From NCBI RefSeq assembly GCF_003751225.1, contig NZ_RJKE01000001.1, forward strand, positions 1,426,001-1,490,000: DNA of 64,000 nucleotides, read 5' to 3'. The notes beneath the pieces are model-generated. The model did no database searches and was not told the DNA's origin. It was given only the letters and a program-made list of their open reading frames with translations. Source of the DNA: Actinocorallia herbida. Lineage in GTDB: Bacteria; Actinomycetota; Actinomycetes; Streptosporangiales; Streptosporangiaceae. Positions 46,560 to 52,774 of this stretch are shown here, piece by piece; position 1 is the first letter of the stretch, and the number at the start of each line of letters is the position of its first letter. Both the position numbers and the translations under genes were made by a program.

Positions 46560-47396
46560 TTGGTCGCCATGCGCGGCGGATTCCCCCTGTTGTCCAGTGC
46601 TGTCGCGGTGGCCCTCGCGGTCGCCGCCGGAGTGTGGCCCTCGATTCGGTCGGCGGCCCTCGGCGGCCCGGACGCGGCCGAGGTGCGGGCCGCGGCGGTC
46701 ATCCCGGATCAGGACTGGACCCTCCCGGCGAAGGGTTCTTACACCCTGCCCGCCGCCTCTGCCGACGGACTGCCGCCCGTCATCACCAATATAGAGACGC
46801 AGGACAAGGTCGTCTTCCTGACGATCGACGACGGCTACGAGTACGACGCGGAGTTCGTCAAGATCATCCGGGAGCGGAAGGTCCCGATCCTGACCTTCCT
46901 CACGACCTCCTACATCCCCATGCACGGTCCCTACTTCTGGGCGCTCAAGAACGCCGGCTCCCAGATGGAGAACCACACCGTCAACCACGCCAACCTCCCG
47001 GGGCTGGACGCCGAGGGCCAGAAGAAGGAGATCTGCGGCGCGTCCGACGCGATCGAGCAGCAGTACGCCCGCCGTCCCGCCATCTTCCGCCCGCCCTTCG
47101 GCGCCTTCAACGACACCACCAAGCAGGTGGCCAAGGAGTGCGGCCTGAAGTCGATCATCCTGTGGTCGGCGGAGTACTACAACGGCACCACCTCGCCCCA
47201 GGGCGTCCCCGACGCGTTCGCGCGCGGCGACGGAGGCCAGGGCTTCAAGCCGGGCGACATCATCCTCATGCACTACCGCAAGGGCCTGGCCAAGCAGATG
47301 ACGACGATGCTCGGCTGGATCGAGGAGCAGGGCTTCAAGCCCGCGGCCCTGGAGAACTACCTCCCGGTGTCGCTGGGCGGCAACGCCCCGGGCTAG
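46560..47396 (+). CDS. Secreted polysaccharide deacetylase (NodB domain)
   Basis: 278 residues from TTG 46560, best placed behind GGAGG (46546-46550); ATG 46569 is the alternative. A signal peptide or anchor spans about 4-28. The NodB domain (about 85-265) has motif 1 LTIDDGYEYD, motif 2 HTVNHANL (metal His pair), motif 3 RPPFGAFN and motif 5 ILMHYRKG. It probably trims N-acetyl groups from peptidoglycan or another wall glycan. Its stop overlaps that of the convergent PucR gene by 4 bp. Confidence 0.9.
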   Translation: MVAMRGGFPLLSSAVAVALAVAAGVWPSIRSAALGGPDAAEVRAAAVIPDQDWTLPAKGSYTLPAASADGLPPVITNIETQDKVVFLTIDDGYEYDAEFVKIIRERKVPILTFLTTSYIPMHGPYFWALKNAGSQMENHTVNHANLPGLDAEGQKKEICGASDAIEQQYARRPAIFRPPFGAFNDTTKQVAKECGLKSIILWSAEYYNGTTSPQGVPDAFARGDGGQGFKPGDIILMHYRKGLAKQMTTMLGWIEEQGFKPAALENYLPVSLGGNAPG

Positions 47397-49069
47397 ATGC
47401 CGCGCATCCGCAGGACCCGCAGCGCCAGGTTGACGTTGAGCTGGAGGTGCGGGTCCTCGGTGAACGGGCCGAGCATGCGCTCCAGCTTGCCGATGCGGTA
47501 GCGCAGGGTGTTGTAGTGGAAGTGCAGGCGGCGGGCGGTCTCGGCGACGTTGAGGTTGGTCTCCAGGAGCACCTGGAGGGTGCGGCGCAGGTCCGCGGCC
47601 TCGGGATCGGCGTCCCCGGCGAGGTCGCCCAGGGTCTCGGCGACGAACGCGTGCAGTTCCGCGCTGTCGTCCACGAGGCTGAGCAGCCGGTAGACGCCCA
47701 GGGCGTCGAAGTGCGCGGTCTCGCCCGGCCCGTGCAGCTGCCTGCCCACCCGGACCGCCTTGCCGGCCTGGTCGTAGGCCTCAGGCAGCGTCGCGGGGCC
47801 CGGCGCCGGGCGGCTCACCCCGGTCGTGAACTCCAGGCCCTCGGCGGTCGAGACCTCCCGGACCAGCCCGGCCACGAGATCGGCGAGCGTGCCCTCGGCG
47901 GGCAGGCCGACGACCGCGACGACCTCGTGCGCGAACGCGGCGACCGCGGCGTCCCGGTCCCGGCGGCGCACGGCGGCGGCCCAGGCCGCGGCCAGCCTTT
48001 CCTGGGCGTGCTTGGCGCTGTCCGGCTGCCGGACGGGGACGGCCGACCCGTCGGACTCCAGATCGGGTGAGGCGACGATCACCGCGACCGGCCTGGCGAG
48101 ATCCCAGCCGAACCCGGCGCAGTGCGCGACGACCCGCTCGGCGTCCCCGGCCCGGCCGGCCAGGACGTCGCGCAGGAAGTCGGCGCGGTACTTGCTCTCC
48201 ACCGCCGCGACGGCCTGCTGCTTGGTGACGACGAGCGCGGCGACGGTCGCGGCCCGCTCCAGGATGCCGACCTCGGTGTCGCTCAGCTCGCGGCCGGGGA
48301 AGTACGCGGCGATCAGGCCGTGGTCCTCACCCGCCGCGGCGACGGGCACGACCACCCGGTCGCCGTGCAGGCCGAGGCCGTGGTGGCGCTCCAGCCAGAG
48401 CTCGAGGGTCTTCAGGTCGGCGGCGGAACCGGCCCCGGCCAGGACCCGCTCGTCGCCGTCCAGCGCGAGCACGGCGCCGTCGAGGAGTTCGGCGAGTTCC
48501 GCCGTCACCTCCGGCAGTCCGCCTCCGGCCAGCACGATCTGGACGAGCGCGCGGTGCACCTCCTCGGTGCGGGCGAGGATCGCGGCCTGCCGGTTGAGGA
48601 TGTCGGTGAGCACCTGGTTGAGGATGTCGTCGAAGCCGACGTGCTCGGGGAGCTGGATGAGCGGGAAGCCGAGCCGGTCGGCGCGCGCCAGCATCTCCTT
48701 CGGCAGCTCGTCAAGATAGGCCCCGGGCTTGACGGCGAGGGCCGCGACGCCCCGCTCGTTCAGCCCCGTCACCAGGTGGCCGAGCGCCTCCGGCCGGTTG
48801 CGCAGCGGGTATCCGGTGGTGAGGAGCAGCTCGTTCGGCTTCACCCAGGCCAGGACGTCCGGCACCTCCATGACGTTCAGGCGCTGCACGATCCGGTCGA
48901 GCCCCGCCGCGCCCGCGACGAGTTCGGCGTCGGCGAGGGTGGACACGCCGAGCACCTCGCGGACGGGGAGGCCGTATTTCAGGGTGCCCGTGCTGGCGAG
49001 GCGCAGCCGCGGCGGGACGGTGTGGGTCTCGCCGGTCCTGCGGGTCCAGAGGTCGGTGCGTGTTTCCAT
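47393..49069 (-). CDS. PucR-family purine-catabolism transcriptional regulator
   Basis: 558 residues from ATG 49069 (ATG 49084 is possible; no good Shine-Dalgarno). N-terminal PucR sensing domain (about 28-150: GLPVREVLGVSTLADAELVAG; NELLLTTGYPLR), a GGDEF-like middle part, and the C-terminal PucR helix-turn-helix LNVAETARRLHFHYNTLRYRIGKLERMLG. Family members control purine/ureide degradation. It is divergent from the DUF2877/FdrA-like pair, its likely target. Confidence 0.92.
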   Translation of the reverse strand: METRTDLWTRRTGETHTVPPRLRLASTGTLKYGLPVREVLGVSTLADAELVAGAAGLDRIVQRLNVMEVPDVLAWVKPNELLLTTGYPLRNRPEALGHLVTGLNERGVAALAVKPGAYLDELPKEMLARADRLGFPLIQLPEHVGFDDILNQVLTDILNRQAAILARTEEVHRALVQIVLAGGGLPEVTAELAELLDGAVLALDGDERVLAGAGSAADLKTLELWLERHHGLGLHGDRVVVPVAAAGEDHGLIAAYFPGRELSDTEVGILERAATVAALVVTKQQAVAAVESKYRADFLRDVLAGRAGDAERVVAHCAGFGWDLARPVAVIVASPDLESDGSAVPVRQPDSAKHAQERLAAAWAAAVRRRDRDAAVAAFAHEVVAVVGLPAEGTLADLVAGLVREVSTAEGLEFTTGVSRPAPGPATLPEAYDQAGKAVRVGRQLHGPGETAHFDALGVYRLLSLVDDSAELHAFVAETLGDLAGDADPEAADLRRTLQVLLETNLNVAETARRLHFHYNTLRYRIGKLERMLGPFTEDPHLQLNVNLALRVLRMRGI

Positions 49070-49097
49070 CGGAGGTGTAACCATCACAAGAAAGACG

Positions 49098-49116
49098 AAG
49101 GATGACAAGTATCCTT
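49098..49116. promoter_or_regulatory. Inverted repeat between PucR gene and the DUF2877 gene
   Basis: AAGGAT (49098-49103), GACAAGT, ATCCTT (49111-49116) in an AT-richer pocket of the divergent promoter region; possible PucR operator. Confidence 0.35.
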
Positions 49117-49195
49117 GGCAACTTTCTCCATACGGCCATCGTGTGAACGAGCGTTAACGTCCGTTCAACGCGCCGACCCCTGGAGGAACAAGCCC

Positions 49196-50122
49196 GTGAC
49201 GGACCGCCCGGCTCCCCGGCTCCTGGTGACCGAACCTGCCGACGGAACGAGCCTGCCCCCCGTGCCGGGCGCGGCCAGCCTCGCCCTGCGCGAGGTCCTG
49301 GAACGGCCGCGCACGCCCGCCCGGGTCGTCGCGGTGTTCCCGTCGTCGGTGTACCTGCTGCTGAAATCCGGCGCCGACCCGCGGGTGGTGGTGCTGGCCG
49401 GATCCGACGAGGCCCGCCCCGCCAACTCCGTGATCGTGCCGTCCGTCTCGCGCCACCAGCCCTTCGCCGGAGTCCGCGAAGGCGACGAGGCGTGGGTGGG
49501 GGACGGGCTGGTCGAGGCCGGCGACTTCGGGGTCCGGGTCAAACGCTGGTGGGATCCCCGGCCCGTCCTCGGGCCGCTCACCACGGCGGGGCTGCGCCAC
49601 TCCGTCATGGCCCTGGAGAACGTGCTCGACCCGGCGGCCTGCGGGCTCGCCGGGCACCCCGGCCCCGCGGCGCTCGCCGCGCACTGCGCGGCCGGCGACC
49701 TCGCCCGCGCCGTCCCGGCCGCCGAGCGGATCGTCGGGCTCGGGCCCGGCCTCACGCCCAGCGGCGACGACGTCCTCGCCGGCCTGCTCCTCTCGCTGCG
49801 CCTGCTGGGCTCGGTCCTCGACGGCGGCGGCCGGGCCGTCTGGCTCGCGGGCTGGCTCGCCGCGGCCGTCACCGCCGACACCGAGACCCGCACGACGCCC
49901 ATGGGCGCGGCCGCGCTGCACTGCGCCGCGGCCGGAAGGCCCGCCGCCGAGGCCGCCGCCGTGCTGCGCGGCCTTGCCGGGCGTGAACAGCTCGTCCCCG
50001 CCGTGGGGCGGCTGGCCAGGCCCGGCCGCGCCGGAGGTCAGGATCTCGCCTGGGGACTGCTCGCGGGGGCGCGGGCCACCCTGGCGCTGCGCGGCGAAGC
50101 CGTGCGCCGGGCGACCGCGTGA
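49196..50122 (+). CDS. DUF2877-family protein (YlbF/AllH-like)
   Basis: 308 residues from GTG 49196, Shine-Dalgarno GGAGG at 49182-49186; the upstream ORF extension is not needed. The family core GLGPGLTPSGDDVLAGLL (about 181-198) is clear. DUF2877 proteins are encoded with FdrA and DUF1116 in allantoin/ureide clusters, where the trio has been linked to oxamate carbamoyltransferase (AllFGH). Here DUF1116 (AllG) is missing. The stop overlaps the next gene by 4 bp. Confidence 0.85.
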   Translation: MTDRPAPRLLVTEPADGTSLPPVPGAASLALREVLERPRTPARVVAVFPSSVYLLLKSGADPRVVVLAGSDEARPANSVIVPSVSRHQPFAGVREGDEAWVGDGLVEAGDFGVRVKRWWDPRPVLGPLTTAGLRHSVMALENVLDPAACGLAGHPGPAALAAHCAAGDLARAVPAAERIVGLGPGLTPSGDDVLAGLLLSLRLLGSVLDGGGRAVWLAGWLAAAVTADTETRTTPMGAAALHCAAAGRPAAEAAAVLRGLAGREQLVPAVGRLARPGRAGGQDLAWGLLAGARATLALRGEAVRRATA

Positions 50123-50625
50123 CCCCACCCCTGACGGTCGGGGGACCGGACGCCTACCGCGCCGCGCTGGACGCCCTGCACGGCGGACGCGATGTACTGC
50201 TCCCGGGGGAGGAGCTCTCGGTCGCGCAGGAGATCGCGCTCAAGGACGAGGCGGCGATGCTCGGCAGACTCGTCCTCGGGCCCTGCGCCTGCACGGGTTC
50301 TCTTCCACCCGGCCCCTACGGCGTCGTAGGGGTCTCGCCCGAGGCCACCGCGGAGGTCGTCGAGGTACTCGCGGAAAAGGGAGGGCGCGTCCTTCCCGTC
50401 GGCTCCCGCGACCTGTCCGCGGCGGTCTGCGGCCGGGCCACCCTCCAGGCCCTCGCGGCGTTCGACGCCGATCCCGTCATAGAGGCGGTGGTGCTGGCCG
50501 CGGAACGCCCCGCAGGGGAAGTCGCGGCCCTACTGCGCGAGGCCGCCCGACGGCTGGGCAAGCCCGTGGTCTCGGCGGCGCCCGGCGAGGCACGGTTCGT
50601 GCTCGCCCGCCTGGACGTCCTTTAG
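50119..50625 (+). CDS. Short FdrA-like (AllF-like) single-domain protein
   Basis: 168 residues from GTG 50119. The whole protein aligns by eye with the internal succinyl-CoA-ligase-like part of FdrA: IALKDEAAMLGRLVLGPCACTG, GVVGVSPEATAEVVE, VGSRDLSAAVCGRATLQAL, and GKPVV near the end. Full FdrA is about 500-550 residues, so this is a minimal or partial version. FdrA's PDCG is here PCAC, and GG of RDLS-x-x-VGG is CG. Translationally coupled to the DUF2877 gene, under likely PucR control. Not a recent truncation: the ORF is clean. Confidence 0.7.
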   Translation: MTPPLTVGGPDAYRAALDALHGGRDVLLPGEELSVAQEIALKDEAAMLGRLVLGPCACTGSLPPGPYGVVGVSPEATAEVVEVLAEKGGRVLPVGSRDLSAAVCGRATLQALAAFDADPVIEAVVLAAERPAGEVAALLREAARRLGKPVVSAAPGEARFVLARLDVL

Positions 50626-50705: not shown

Positions 50706-51605
50706 ATGATGCTTTCGGGGAATCAGTACGAGATCGCCGCGGGCGGCTACCGGGCCGCGGCCACCGAGCAGGGCGGCAGCCTGCGGGAGCTGACGCACGA
50801 GGGCGCCCCCCTCGTCATCGGCTTCGCCCCGGACGAGGTGGTCGACGGCGCGGCGGGGCAGATCCTCGCCCCGTGGCCCAACCGCATCGCGCACGGCACC
50901 TACGTCTTCGAGGGAGTCGAGCAGCACACCCCGATCACCGAGCCGGACCGCGACTGCGCGATCCACGGCCTGGTCCGGTGGGAGCCGTGGACCGTCACCG
51001 AGCACGAGGCCGACCGCGTCACCCTCGTGCACCGGCTGCTCGGCCGCCCCGGCTACCCCTACCGGCTCGACCTGTCGGTCACCTACTCCCTCGACGCGCG
51101 CACCGGCCTGACCGTCCGGCTCGGCGCGGCCAACGCGGGCACCCGCAACGCCCCCTACGGGCAGAGCGCCCACCCGTACCTCACCGTCGGCCGGCCGCTC
51201 GACGAGTGCACCGTGACGTTCGGGGCCAGCCACTACCAGCCCGTGAACGAGCGGCTCATCCCGTCCGGCGCGCCCGTGCCCGTCGCGGGCACCCGGTACG
51301 ACCTCAGCTCCGGCGGCGTCTTCGGCGCCCGCCGCATCGACACCGCCTACACCGGCCTGGAGTTCGCCGACGGCCGCGCCTGGGTGGGCCTGTCGGGCGG
51401 CGGCCGCACCGTCGGGCTGTGGGCCGATGACGGCCACCCGTGGCTCCAGCTCTATACCGCCGACCACATGGGCGAACGCGCCCGTACGGGCCTCGCCGCG
51501 GAGCCGATGACCTGCCCGCCGAACGCCTTCAACACCGGAGTGGACCTCATCACTCTCAAACCAGGTGACGCGTTCGCCAGTTCTTGGGGGATCATCTCCT
51601 TGTGA
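50706..51605 (+). CDS. Aldose 1-epimerase-family protein
   Basis: 299 residues from ATG 50706 (ATG 50709 is equally possible). Galactose-mutarotase-like beta sandwich: LAPWPNRIAHGTYVF (about 57-71), catalytic His in DCAIHGLVRW, second His in GQSAHPYLTVG, and Glu in LAAEPMTCPPNAFNTG near 265-280. It interconverts sugar anomers; substrate not known. It overlaps the next gene by 4 bp (GTGA). Confidence 0.9.
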   Translation: MMLSGNQYEIAAGGYRAAATEQGGSLRELTHEGAPLVIGFAPDEVVDGAAGQILAPWPNRIAHGTYVFEGVEQHTPITEPDRDCAIHGLVRWEPWTVTEHEADRVTLVHRLLGRPGYPYRLDLSVTYSLDARTGLTVRLGAANAGTRNAPYGQSAHPYLTVGRPLDECTVTFGASHYQPVNERLIPSGAPVPVAGTRYDLSSGGVFGARRIDTAYTGLEFADGRAWVGLSGGGRTVGLWADDGHPWLQLYTADHMGERARTGLAAEPMTCPPNAFNTGVDLITLKPGDAFASSWGIISL

Positions 51606-52774
51606 ACCTCAGCGTCTCCACGACCGACGATCTGGCAGAGCGGGTCCGCGCACTGGCCGCGGCGTCGGCGGGCCGCACCGGTACCGCAGAGGGCCGCCAG
51701 CCCGTCCACACGGTGTTCGTCCCGGCCGACCGCTTCTCGCGCACCACCACCGCCGACTGGGGCGCGCAGGCGCTGCGGCTGCTCAACAAGCACACGCCGG
51801 GCGACGGCTCGTTCGGCGCGTCGTTCATGCTCGACCCGTCGCTGGCCGGGCAGATCCGGGCGCGGGTGGCGGCCAAGCTCGCGCGCGAGCCGATCGAGGA
51901 TCTGCGCATCGACTTCGGCCCCGCCTACGGCGACCGGTGGTCGGACACCGAGGAGGACGGGCACGTCGAGCAGGTCGTCGAGGCCGTCGCGACCTCCTAC
52001 AACGCCCAGCAGCTCCCGCACTTCTGGGGCGTGCGCGTCAAGTCGTTCTCCGGCGGCGGGCACGCGCGGGCGATGCGGACCCTCGACGGCTTCCTCACCT
52101 CCCTGCGCGACAGGCTCGGAAGGCTTCCCGGCGGCTTCACCATCACCCTGCCGGACGTCACGGGGGCCGAGCAGGTCGCGGTCTTCACCGACTTCCTCGA
52201 CAGGCTGGAGGCCGCACTCGGCCTGCCCAACGGCACACTGCGCTTCGAGGTGCAGATCGACGCGCCCGCGGGCCTCGCCGACCAGCGCGGCGGGCTCGGC
52301 GTCCGGCGGGTCCTGGTCTCCGGGCAGGGCCGGATCCAGACCGTCCACTTCGGCGGGCTCGACTACGCCTCGGCGCTCGGCCTGCCCGAGGAGCAGCGGC
52401 GGCTCGACCACCCCGTCTGCGACTTCGCCCGGCACGTCCTCCAGACGACGACGGCGGGCTGGGGCGTCCGGCTGTCCGACGGGCCCCCGCACCTGACGCC
52501 CAGGGACGACTCGGCCGACGAGGTCGTCCCGGCCTGGCAGGCGCACGCCACCGAGGTCAGGCACTCCCTCGCGCACGGCTTCTACCAGGGCTGGGACACC
52601 GATCCGGCGCACCTGCCCGCCCGCTATGCCGCGCTGTTCGACTTCCACCTCAGCGGGGTGGAGGCGGCGATCGGGCGGCTCGAGGCCGCGCCGGAGCGCT
52701 CGGCCGCGCTGCTCGACCGGCTCCAGCGGGGCGTCGCCTGCGGCGCGCTGGACCCCGAGGTCCTCCAGGGCTGA
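51602..52774 (+). CDS. DUF6986-like / HpcH-HpaI-fold aldolase candidate
   Basis: 390 residues from GTG 51602. The middle and C-terminal parts look like a TIM barrel: FEVQIDAPAGLADQRGGLGV (near 215-234) resembles the metal-binding beta strand of citrate-lyase-type aldolases, and RIQTVHFGGLDYASALGL the following loop. I recall similar actinobacterial proteins labelled DUF6986 or aldolase. Coupling to an aldose epimerase suggests sugar or oxoacid metabolism. Not experimentally anchored. Confidence 0.6.
   Translation: MNLSVSTTDDLAERVRALAAASAGRTGTAEGRQPVHTVFVPADRFSRTTTADWGAQALRLLNKHTPGDGSFGASFMLDPSLAGQIRARVAAKLAREPIEDLRIDFGPAYGDRWSDTEEDGHVEQVVEAVATSYNAQQLPHFWGVRVKSFSGGGHARAMRTLDGFLTSLRDRLGRLPGGFTITLPDVTGAEQVAVFTDFLDRLEAALGLPNGTLRFEVQIDAPAGLADQRGGLGVRRVLVSGQGRIQTVHFGGLDYASALGLPEEQRRLDHPVCDFARHVLQTTTAGWGVRLSDGPPHLTPRDDSADEVVPAWQAHATEVRHSLAHGFYQGWDTDPAHLPARYAALFDFHLSGVEAAIGRLEAAPERSAALLDRLQRGVACGALDPEVLQG

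Follow-up and report, generated by a model that had tools for sequence, protein, structure and literature searches.

AllH and a trimmed AllF beside PucR in Actinocorallia: the probable remnant of an AllFGH operon

The oxamic transcarbamylase AllFGH of Escherichia coli (FdrA-YlbE-YlbF) is an enzyme of three subunits that acts on a product of purine degradation, with the reaction oxamate + carbamoyl phosphate <-> oxalurate; the genes encoding it were identified in 2024 (PMC11326118). In a 64,000-nucleotide stretch of the Actinocorallia herbida genome (contig NZ_RJKE01000001.1, positions 1,426,001 to 1,490,000; hereafter the window), a gene for a PucR-family regulator lies divergent from a gene for AllH (DUF2877), which overlaps a gene for a 168-residue relative of the AllF core, here called mini-AllF, and AllG (DUF1116) is missing. 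We read this locus, with confidence somewhat above even, as a remnant operon that combines a repurposed AllH with a non-catalytic, pseudo-enzyme mini-AllF behind an ancestral promoter element. The observations behind this reading are the synteny that records the ancestry of the locus, the absence of AllG, the loss of conserved AllF loops, the predicted fold of the core, purifying selection, a conserved element in the spacer, and the occurrence of AllH without AllG in other genomes. All three genes had been described, in this arrangement, in an earlier note made from the sequence, and all three are present.

Two samples were scanned, 150 genomes of the family and 296 of the phylum. The order PucR | AllH-mini-AllF is found in all three Actinocorallia genomes (the window, sp. 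API 0066, and A. populi), where the short AllF measures 168, 170, and 180 residues, respectively; the other two are 83% and 67% identical to that of the window. In each, the GTG start of mini-AllF sits inside the AllH stop codon (GTGA), generating a 4-nt overlap. By profile search, AllG occurs in none of the three, versus 95 of the 150 genomes in the family sample. Its profile (PF06545) has no match in the whole 9.8-Mb single-contig genome of the window, in which AllH is a single-copy gene; the E. coli control was positive. The FdrA model NF004760 gives just two matches genome-wide, one of 56.8 bits at this locus (model cut-off 433) and one of 28.7 bits at 8.55 Mb, where, at E 1e-6, no called gene in a 17-kb stretch (L043) matches either the window's AllH or its PucR. 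These whole-genome profile searches rejected an AllG or a full FdrA elsewhere in the genome, bearing out the earlier note, which had described the locus as lacking DUF1116 and had named a DUF1116 gene and full FdrA acting with this DUF2877 protein from another site as grounds for dismissal.

Mini-AllF has no match in Pfam (E up to 1), including none to Ligase_CoA (PF00549). It is recognized by NF004760 at positions 124-288 of 555 (E 9.6e-17, 60.7 bits) and by the sequence of PDB entry 3dmy at residues 43-207 (E 1.1e-8). The retained stretch corresponds to the CoA_binding/Succ_CoA_lig part of AllF (residues 193-299 in locus L036) together with some preceding sequence. The Ligase_CoA domain proper (L036 residues 331-485) is missing; the protein is not a full-length AllF, and its former description as the central ligase-like domain needs correcting. 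An AlphaFold2 (AF2) model built from four sequences reached a predicted local distance difference test (pLDDT) score of 85.1 and a predicted template modeling score of 0.81, with one of the five models at just 64. The best PDB match by Foldseek was 3dmy (template modeling score 0.73 by query length), followed by succinyl-CoA synthetase and ATP-citrate lyase. Mini-AllF is predicted to keep the core fold of the FdrA/SucD type, in agreement with the FdrA relationship first proposed for it.

The residues conserved on this fold have fared differently. Conservation was scored against 26 actinobacterial full-length AllFs and E. coli AllF over a core spanning E. coli residues 122-285, in which 71 columns are at least 95% conserved. 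The minis keep 34, 36, and 40 of these columns, E. coli keeps 58, and each actinobacterial full-length protein keeps at least 69; 33 columns persist in every mini, 9 are deleted, 9 are re-fixed to one new residue, and 20 are mixed. Lost or replaced in all three are FSDN, GPDCGT...LGFAN (now GPCAC or GPCAA, in a region where 11 E. coli AllF residues have no counterpart in the alignment), ASGTG, and H.LGVGG; glycine-rich loops are among the losses, and the K of KPP is also lost or replaced. Kept are E..LK, RDLS..V.G, AL, and D.D. It had been suggested that PCAC in place of PDCG might alter the chemistry. A CxC chemistry was rejected, since the second cysteine is not conserved (PCAC, PCAC, and PCAA in the three species).

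Other genera of the family carry, at the same place, the order PucR | AllH-AllF-AllG, with a homologous PucR, and in 26 loci a full-length AllF is matched across 446-540 residues. At E <= 1e-8, NF004760 matches in 102 of the 150 family genomes: the three Actinocorallia, in which the match is confined to positions 123-289, four genomes with weak matches (1e-9 range), and 95 with strong ones. The C-terminal segment (within positions 321-552) is likewise found in 94 of these 95; in the remaining one, G094, the match is interrupted by a contig end (contig of 21635). The short Actinocorallia AllF is therefore a derived reduction, unique within the 150-genome sample. One search for the mini form went beyond the family, a scan with two short peptide patterns that was not length-aware; it returned three loci, those of API 0066 and A. 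populi and one in Actinomadura hibisca with a full-length AllF.

A reduced gene may simply be debris, in which case AllF was truncated by a deletion and both leftovers are merely not yet lost. The family does contain such debris (G068 has a 44-residue match to AllF and G099 a C-terminal piece of AllG), the mini-AllF of the window ranks lowest in GC content at third codon positions (GC3, 0.858) among 12 gene sequences, and one pair of species, API 0066 and A. populi, has a ratio of nonsynonymous to synonymous change (omega) of 0.518. We nevertheless consider this explanation unlikely: the reading frame is intact, the start overlap recurs in all three species at 67-83% identity to the protein of the window, the predicted fold is confident, and substitutions concentrate at third positions. 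For the pair window-API 0066, omega is 0.118, with 18/20/88 differences by codon position (chi-square p 4e-17), and for window-A. populi it is 0.246, with 35/29/87 (p 2e-9), both being rough estimates. Within the genus, omega is 0.24-0.38 for AllH and 0.14-0.20 for PucR. Overall, mini-AllF looks to be held by purifying selection and not to be decaying. Separately, when the window is compared with API 0066, mini-AllF has a synonymous divergence (dS) of 1.08 and six other genes of the locus have 0.29-0.54, a two- to fourfold difference that goes with a lower GC3 of mini-AllF.

Elsewhere in the family, too, AllH outlives its enzyme. The family sample has AllH in 104 and AllG in 95 of the 150 genomes, and a comparison of the two lists by hand gave 88 genomes with both, 7 with AllG only, and 16 with AllH only. 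A survey for the pair without DUF1116, recommended in the earlier note, returned all three Actinocorallia and, more broadly, AllH without AllG in 16 of the 104 AllH genomes. These 16 are the three Actinocorallia, seven genomes with a solo AllH beside PucR (G037, G109, G149, G091, G114, G068, and G099), five with a divergent AllH (G002, G011, G013, G032, and G115), and G094, a contig-end artefact. The seven solo loci (L067-L073) fall in three genera (g37, g52, and g68), each of which is also represented in the sample by a species with the complete operon. Among the 296 phylum genomes, AllH was found in 26 and AllG in 35; 25 of the 26 AllH genomes have AllG, the exception being the genome of the window. 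Among the open-access PMC papers listed in our searches, no title or abstract dealt with either AllH without AllG or a shortened AllF.

A 43-row tree of AllH (quick search; support by the Shimodaira-Hasegawa-like approximate likelihood-ratio test, SH-aLRT) places the mini loci in one clade (100) and the divergent AllHs in another (96), and the solo loci require four changes, three of them forced by well-supported branches, a count that assumes vertical descent of AllH. Several losses of AllF and AllG beside AllH, apparently independent, are suggested. For instance, the sister genomes G068 and G099, from one genus and about 95% identical at the locus, both have an intact AllH with different scars behind it, namely the 44-residue AllF match in G068 (L072:6634-6765, E 7e-9) and the AllG C-terminal piece in G099 (L073:6764-6961, tblastn E 9e-19), apparently left by separate recent losses of the operon. 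The remaining 13 of the 14 solo or divergent loci showed no trace of AllF at E below 0.3, and in L068 a weak match to AllG (E 1e-4), antisense within AllH, was taken as chance. The opposite loss was seen in L063 (G063), where AllF and AllG stand beside PucR and no AllH is found in the stretch or, by PF11392, in the genome. In all seven divergent loci (L074-L080), the gene immediately downstream of AllH encodes an aldose 1-epimerase, and no PucR match occurs within the stretch examined; AllH of this clade has lost GHTSG and, in SGDD, the second D. Rather than a product of loss, this clade may represent an old paralogue, because two of its seven genomes, G074 and G082, also have AllG on another contig.

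AllH was detected in 43 of the 44 sequences examined, each time across nearly the full profile; a scan of viral contigs for additional AllH sequences found no relative. With the 26 AllHs of AllF-bearing loci plus E. coli as reference, 63 columns are conserved at >=92%, and the cells they define are kept in 426/441 cases by the solo AllHs, 170/189 by those of the mini loci, and 354/441 by the divergent clade. The motif GLGPGLTPSGDD is complete in every solo and mini AllH. GHTSG is intact in six of the seven solo AllHs, with R for H in the seventh.

A working minimal carbamoyltransferase or CoA-ligase-like enzyme, with AllH as the catalytic subunit, mini-AllF as the second, and AllG dispensable, would fit the retention of GLGPGLTPSGDD and a TT pair in the AllH of the mini loci and the purifying selection on both genes. 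Genetic data from E. coli bear on it in both directions. Oxamate reaches 17.7 mM in the wild type, 0 in delta-allG and in delta-allF, and 1.2 in delta-allH (PMC11326118, Table 1), and the value for delta-allG speaks against a dispensable AllG unless it is a polar effect. In the triple mutant, oxamate returns to 16% of the wild-type level with allGH and to 7% with allFG (PMC11326118, Table 3), showing that not every subunit is indispensable; allF with allH is not among the combinations in the portion of the Results covered here. Nor does that portion, the abstract, or the Discussion show which subunit of AllFGH is catalytic, and no later work that does was among the open-access papers listed. 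Carbamoyl transfer is unlikely in Actinocorallia because AllG is gone, none of the three minis retains the conserved AllF loops (GPDCGT...LGFAN, ASGTG, FSDN, and H.LGVGG), and GHTSG of AllH is altered. Furthermore, no carbamate kinase was found among the eight flanking proteins (a Pfam scan of those, the rest of the genome not being searched). We regard a minimal enzyme as improbable, and the pair probably no longer transfers carbamoyl groups. Of the simplified two-protein system envisaged in the earlier note, a real AllFGH derivative without DUF1116, conserved in three of three genomes, holds up; retained carbamoyl transfer or CoA ligation does not. A requirement of the pair for the uricase/allantoicase route was likewise rejected: among 16 chosen genomes, both enzymes are present in G000 and G075 and neither in G016, which yet keeps the pair; the allantoicase search matched in 0 of 14 control genomes.

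The spacer between PucR and AllH contains the element TTGGCANNTTTCYCCRTACG, found once in the window and in 0 of 100 shuffles with up to 3 mismatches allowed. It is exact in three of three Actinocorallia loci, in 21 of 27 other AllF-bearing loci (L036-L042 and L047-L066), and in four of seven solo-AllH loci, the pattern having been derived from the very sequences in which it was counted. PucR may bind and act on it. AllH, with or without mini-AllF, might serve PucR as a regulatory partner, binding a metabolite and feeding back on the promoter of PucR, as would agree with AllH being the gene divergent from PucR in all seven solo and all three mini loci and with the element in the spacer. The clade in which AllH instead precedes an aldose epimerase gene, PucR being matched in none of its seven stretches, tells against such a role, and adjacency to PucR may reflect only that the proximal gene is deleted last. 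We think this quite improbable.

Under the remnant-operon reading, the ancestor would be a PucR-linked AllH-AllF-AllG operon, of which the present locus is a remodeled remainder. In the Actinocorallia lineage, AllG would have been lost and AllF cut to a core of 168-180 residues, keeping the fold and not the conserved loops. AllH would have a function that needs no AllG and probably works alone elsewhere. In Actinocorallia, mini-AllF would be co-produced with AllH via the 4-nt overlap, still under the ancestral promoter element, and would bind it as a pseudo-enzyme partner, either a stabilizer or an allosteric subunit. A bolder version, in which AllH performs an independent, conserved function separate from oxamate carbamoyl transfer, kept after repeated loss of AllF and AllG, and the Actinocorallia AllF is its dedicated 168-180-residue pseudo-enzyme partner in a new two-protein system beside PucR, is offered only tentatively.

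Several points weigh against the remnant-operon reading. The mini form is present in only three genomes. Omega and dS come from the NG86 method (Nei-Gojobori) with dS about 1 for the mini-AllF pairs involving the window, which makes the estimates rough, and the API 0066-A. populi pair has the highest omega of all pairs measured, its 40/39/66 differences being the weakest evidence for constraint. GHTSG is lost from the Actinocorallia AllH, its last four positions reading RAGG, RNGG, or RYSG; this alteration points to AllH having changed together with AllF, and AllH and mini-AllF may both be drifting toward a minor role. Structure prediction for AllH from three sequences gave a pLDDT of 36.5, too low to place an active site or an interface. 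The zero oxamate of delta-allG in E. coli is possibly a polar effect on allH, because plasmid-borne allG did not restore production (0 mM; PMC11326118, Table 1). Finally, genes retained next to PucR may simply be the last to be deleted. Repeated loss of AllF and AllG with AllH kept, plus one genus that preserves a trimmed AllF, amounts to a natural dissection of the complex, which suggests that AllH does something alone and provides small proteins with which to learn what.

The features of the locus are listed in Table 1. The PucR reading frame is open up to 49108, with ATG 49069 as its likely start, and the PucR N-domain (PF07905), GGDEF_2 (PF17853), and C-terminal HTH_30 (PF13556) together make up the PucR architecture. 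AllH has a probable GTG start preceded by GGAGG. Genes for an aldose epimerase (PF01263) and a DUF6986 protein (PF22484) adjoin the locus at 50706-52774 of the window and stay beside it in several genera, even without AllF and AllG (L070 and L071); in L067, the epimerase is called only as a 96-residue piece. They were rejected as general parts of the module, as other genera have unrelated genes downstream, those identified encoding a kinase, a histidyl-tRNA synthetase, and a methyltransferase.

Table 1. Features of the AllH-mini-AllF locus, in window coordinates.
Feature	Position	Strand	Basis or remark
PucR-family regulator, 558 aa	47393-49069	-	divergent from AllH; PF07905/PF17853/PF13556 above Pfam cut-off
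Conserved spacer element TTGGCANNTTTCYCCRTACG, PucR-AllH divergent spacer	49115-49134	+	putative promoter/operator
AllH (DUF2877, now Pfam 'AllH' PF11392), 308 aa	49196-50122	+	PF11392, 69.3 bits vs cut-off 25
AllH motif GLGPGLTPSGDD, kept	49736-49771	+	
Mini-AllF, 168-aa core of FdrA/AllF	50119-50625	+	NF004760 124-288; 3dmy; AF2 pLDDT 85.1; omega 0.118 vs API 0066
GPCAC in mini-AllF	50278-50292	+	alignment; GPDCGT + loop ending LGFAN in full-length AllF

Compared with E. coli AllFGH, the Actinocorallia locus has a member of the AllH family and, in mini-AllF, a homologue of AllF residues about 122-288 with the same predicted fold (3dmy). It differs in lacking AllG, in the shortening of AllF from 555 to 168 residues with loss of the conserved loops, and in the loss of GHTSG from AllH. 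Moreover, ybcF/allK adjoins the E. coli operon, whereas the eight neighbors here include no carbamate kinase, and the regulator here is PucR, whereas the E. coli operon is reported to be under ArcA and AllS (PMC12535856). The AllH-AllF-AllG operons of related genera (e.g., L036 and L037) share with the Actinocorallia locus a homologous PucR, the spacer element, and the gene order PucR | AllH-AllF; aldose epimerase and DUF6986 genes downstream are common to several of these genera as well. Unlike the Actinocorallia locus, they have a full-length AllF and AllG, and the NCS2 permease gene found nearby in 25 of the 27 AllF-bearing loci of related genera, many of which also have molybdenum-hydroxylase-type genes, is not seen next to the Actinocorallia locus. 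The fold of the retained core also resembles the succinyl-CoA synthetase alpha subunit and ATP-citrate lyase, ranked after 3dmy by Foldseek. In the synthetases, the loops matching GPDCGT and ASGTG have a role in coenzyme A and phosphate binding; in mini-AllF, the loops at these positions are shortened or replaced, and there is no Ligase_CoA part.

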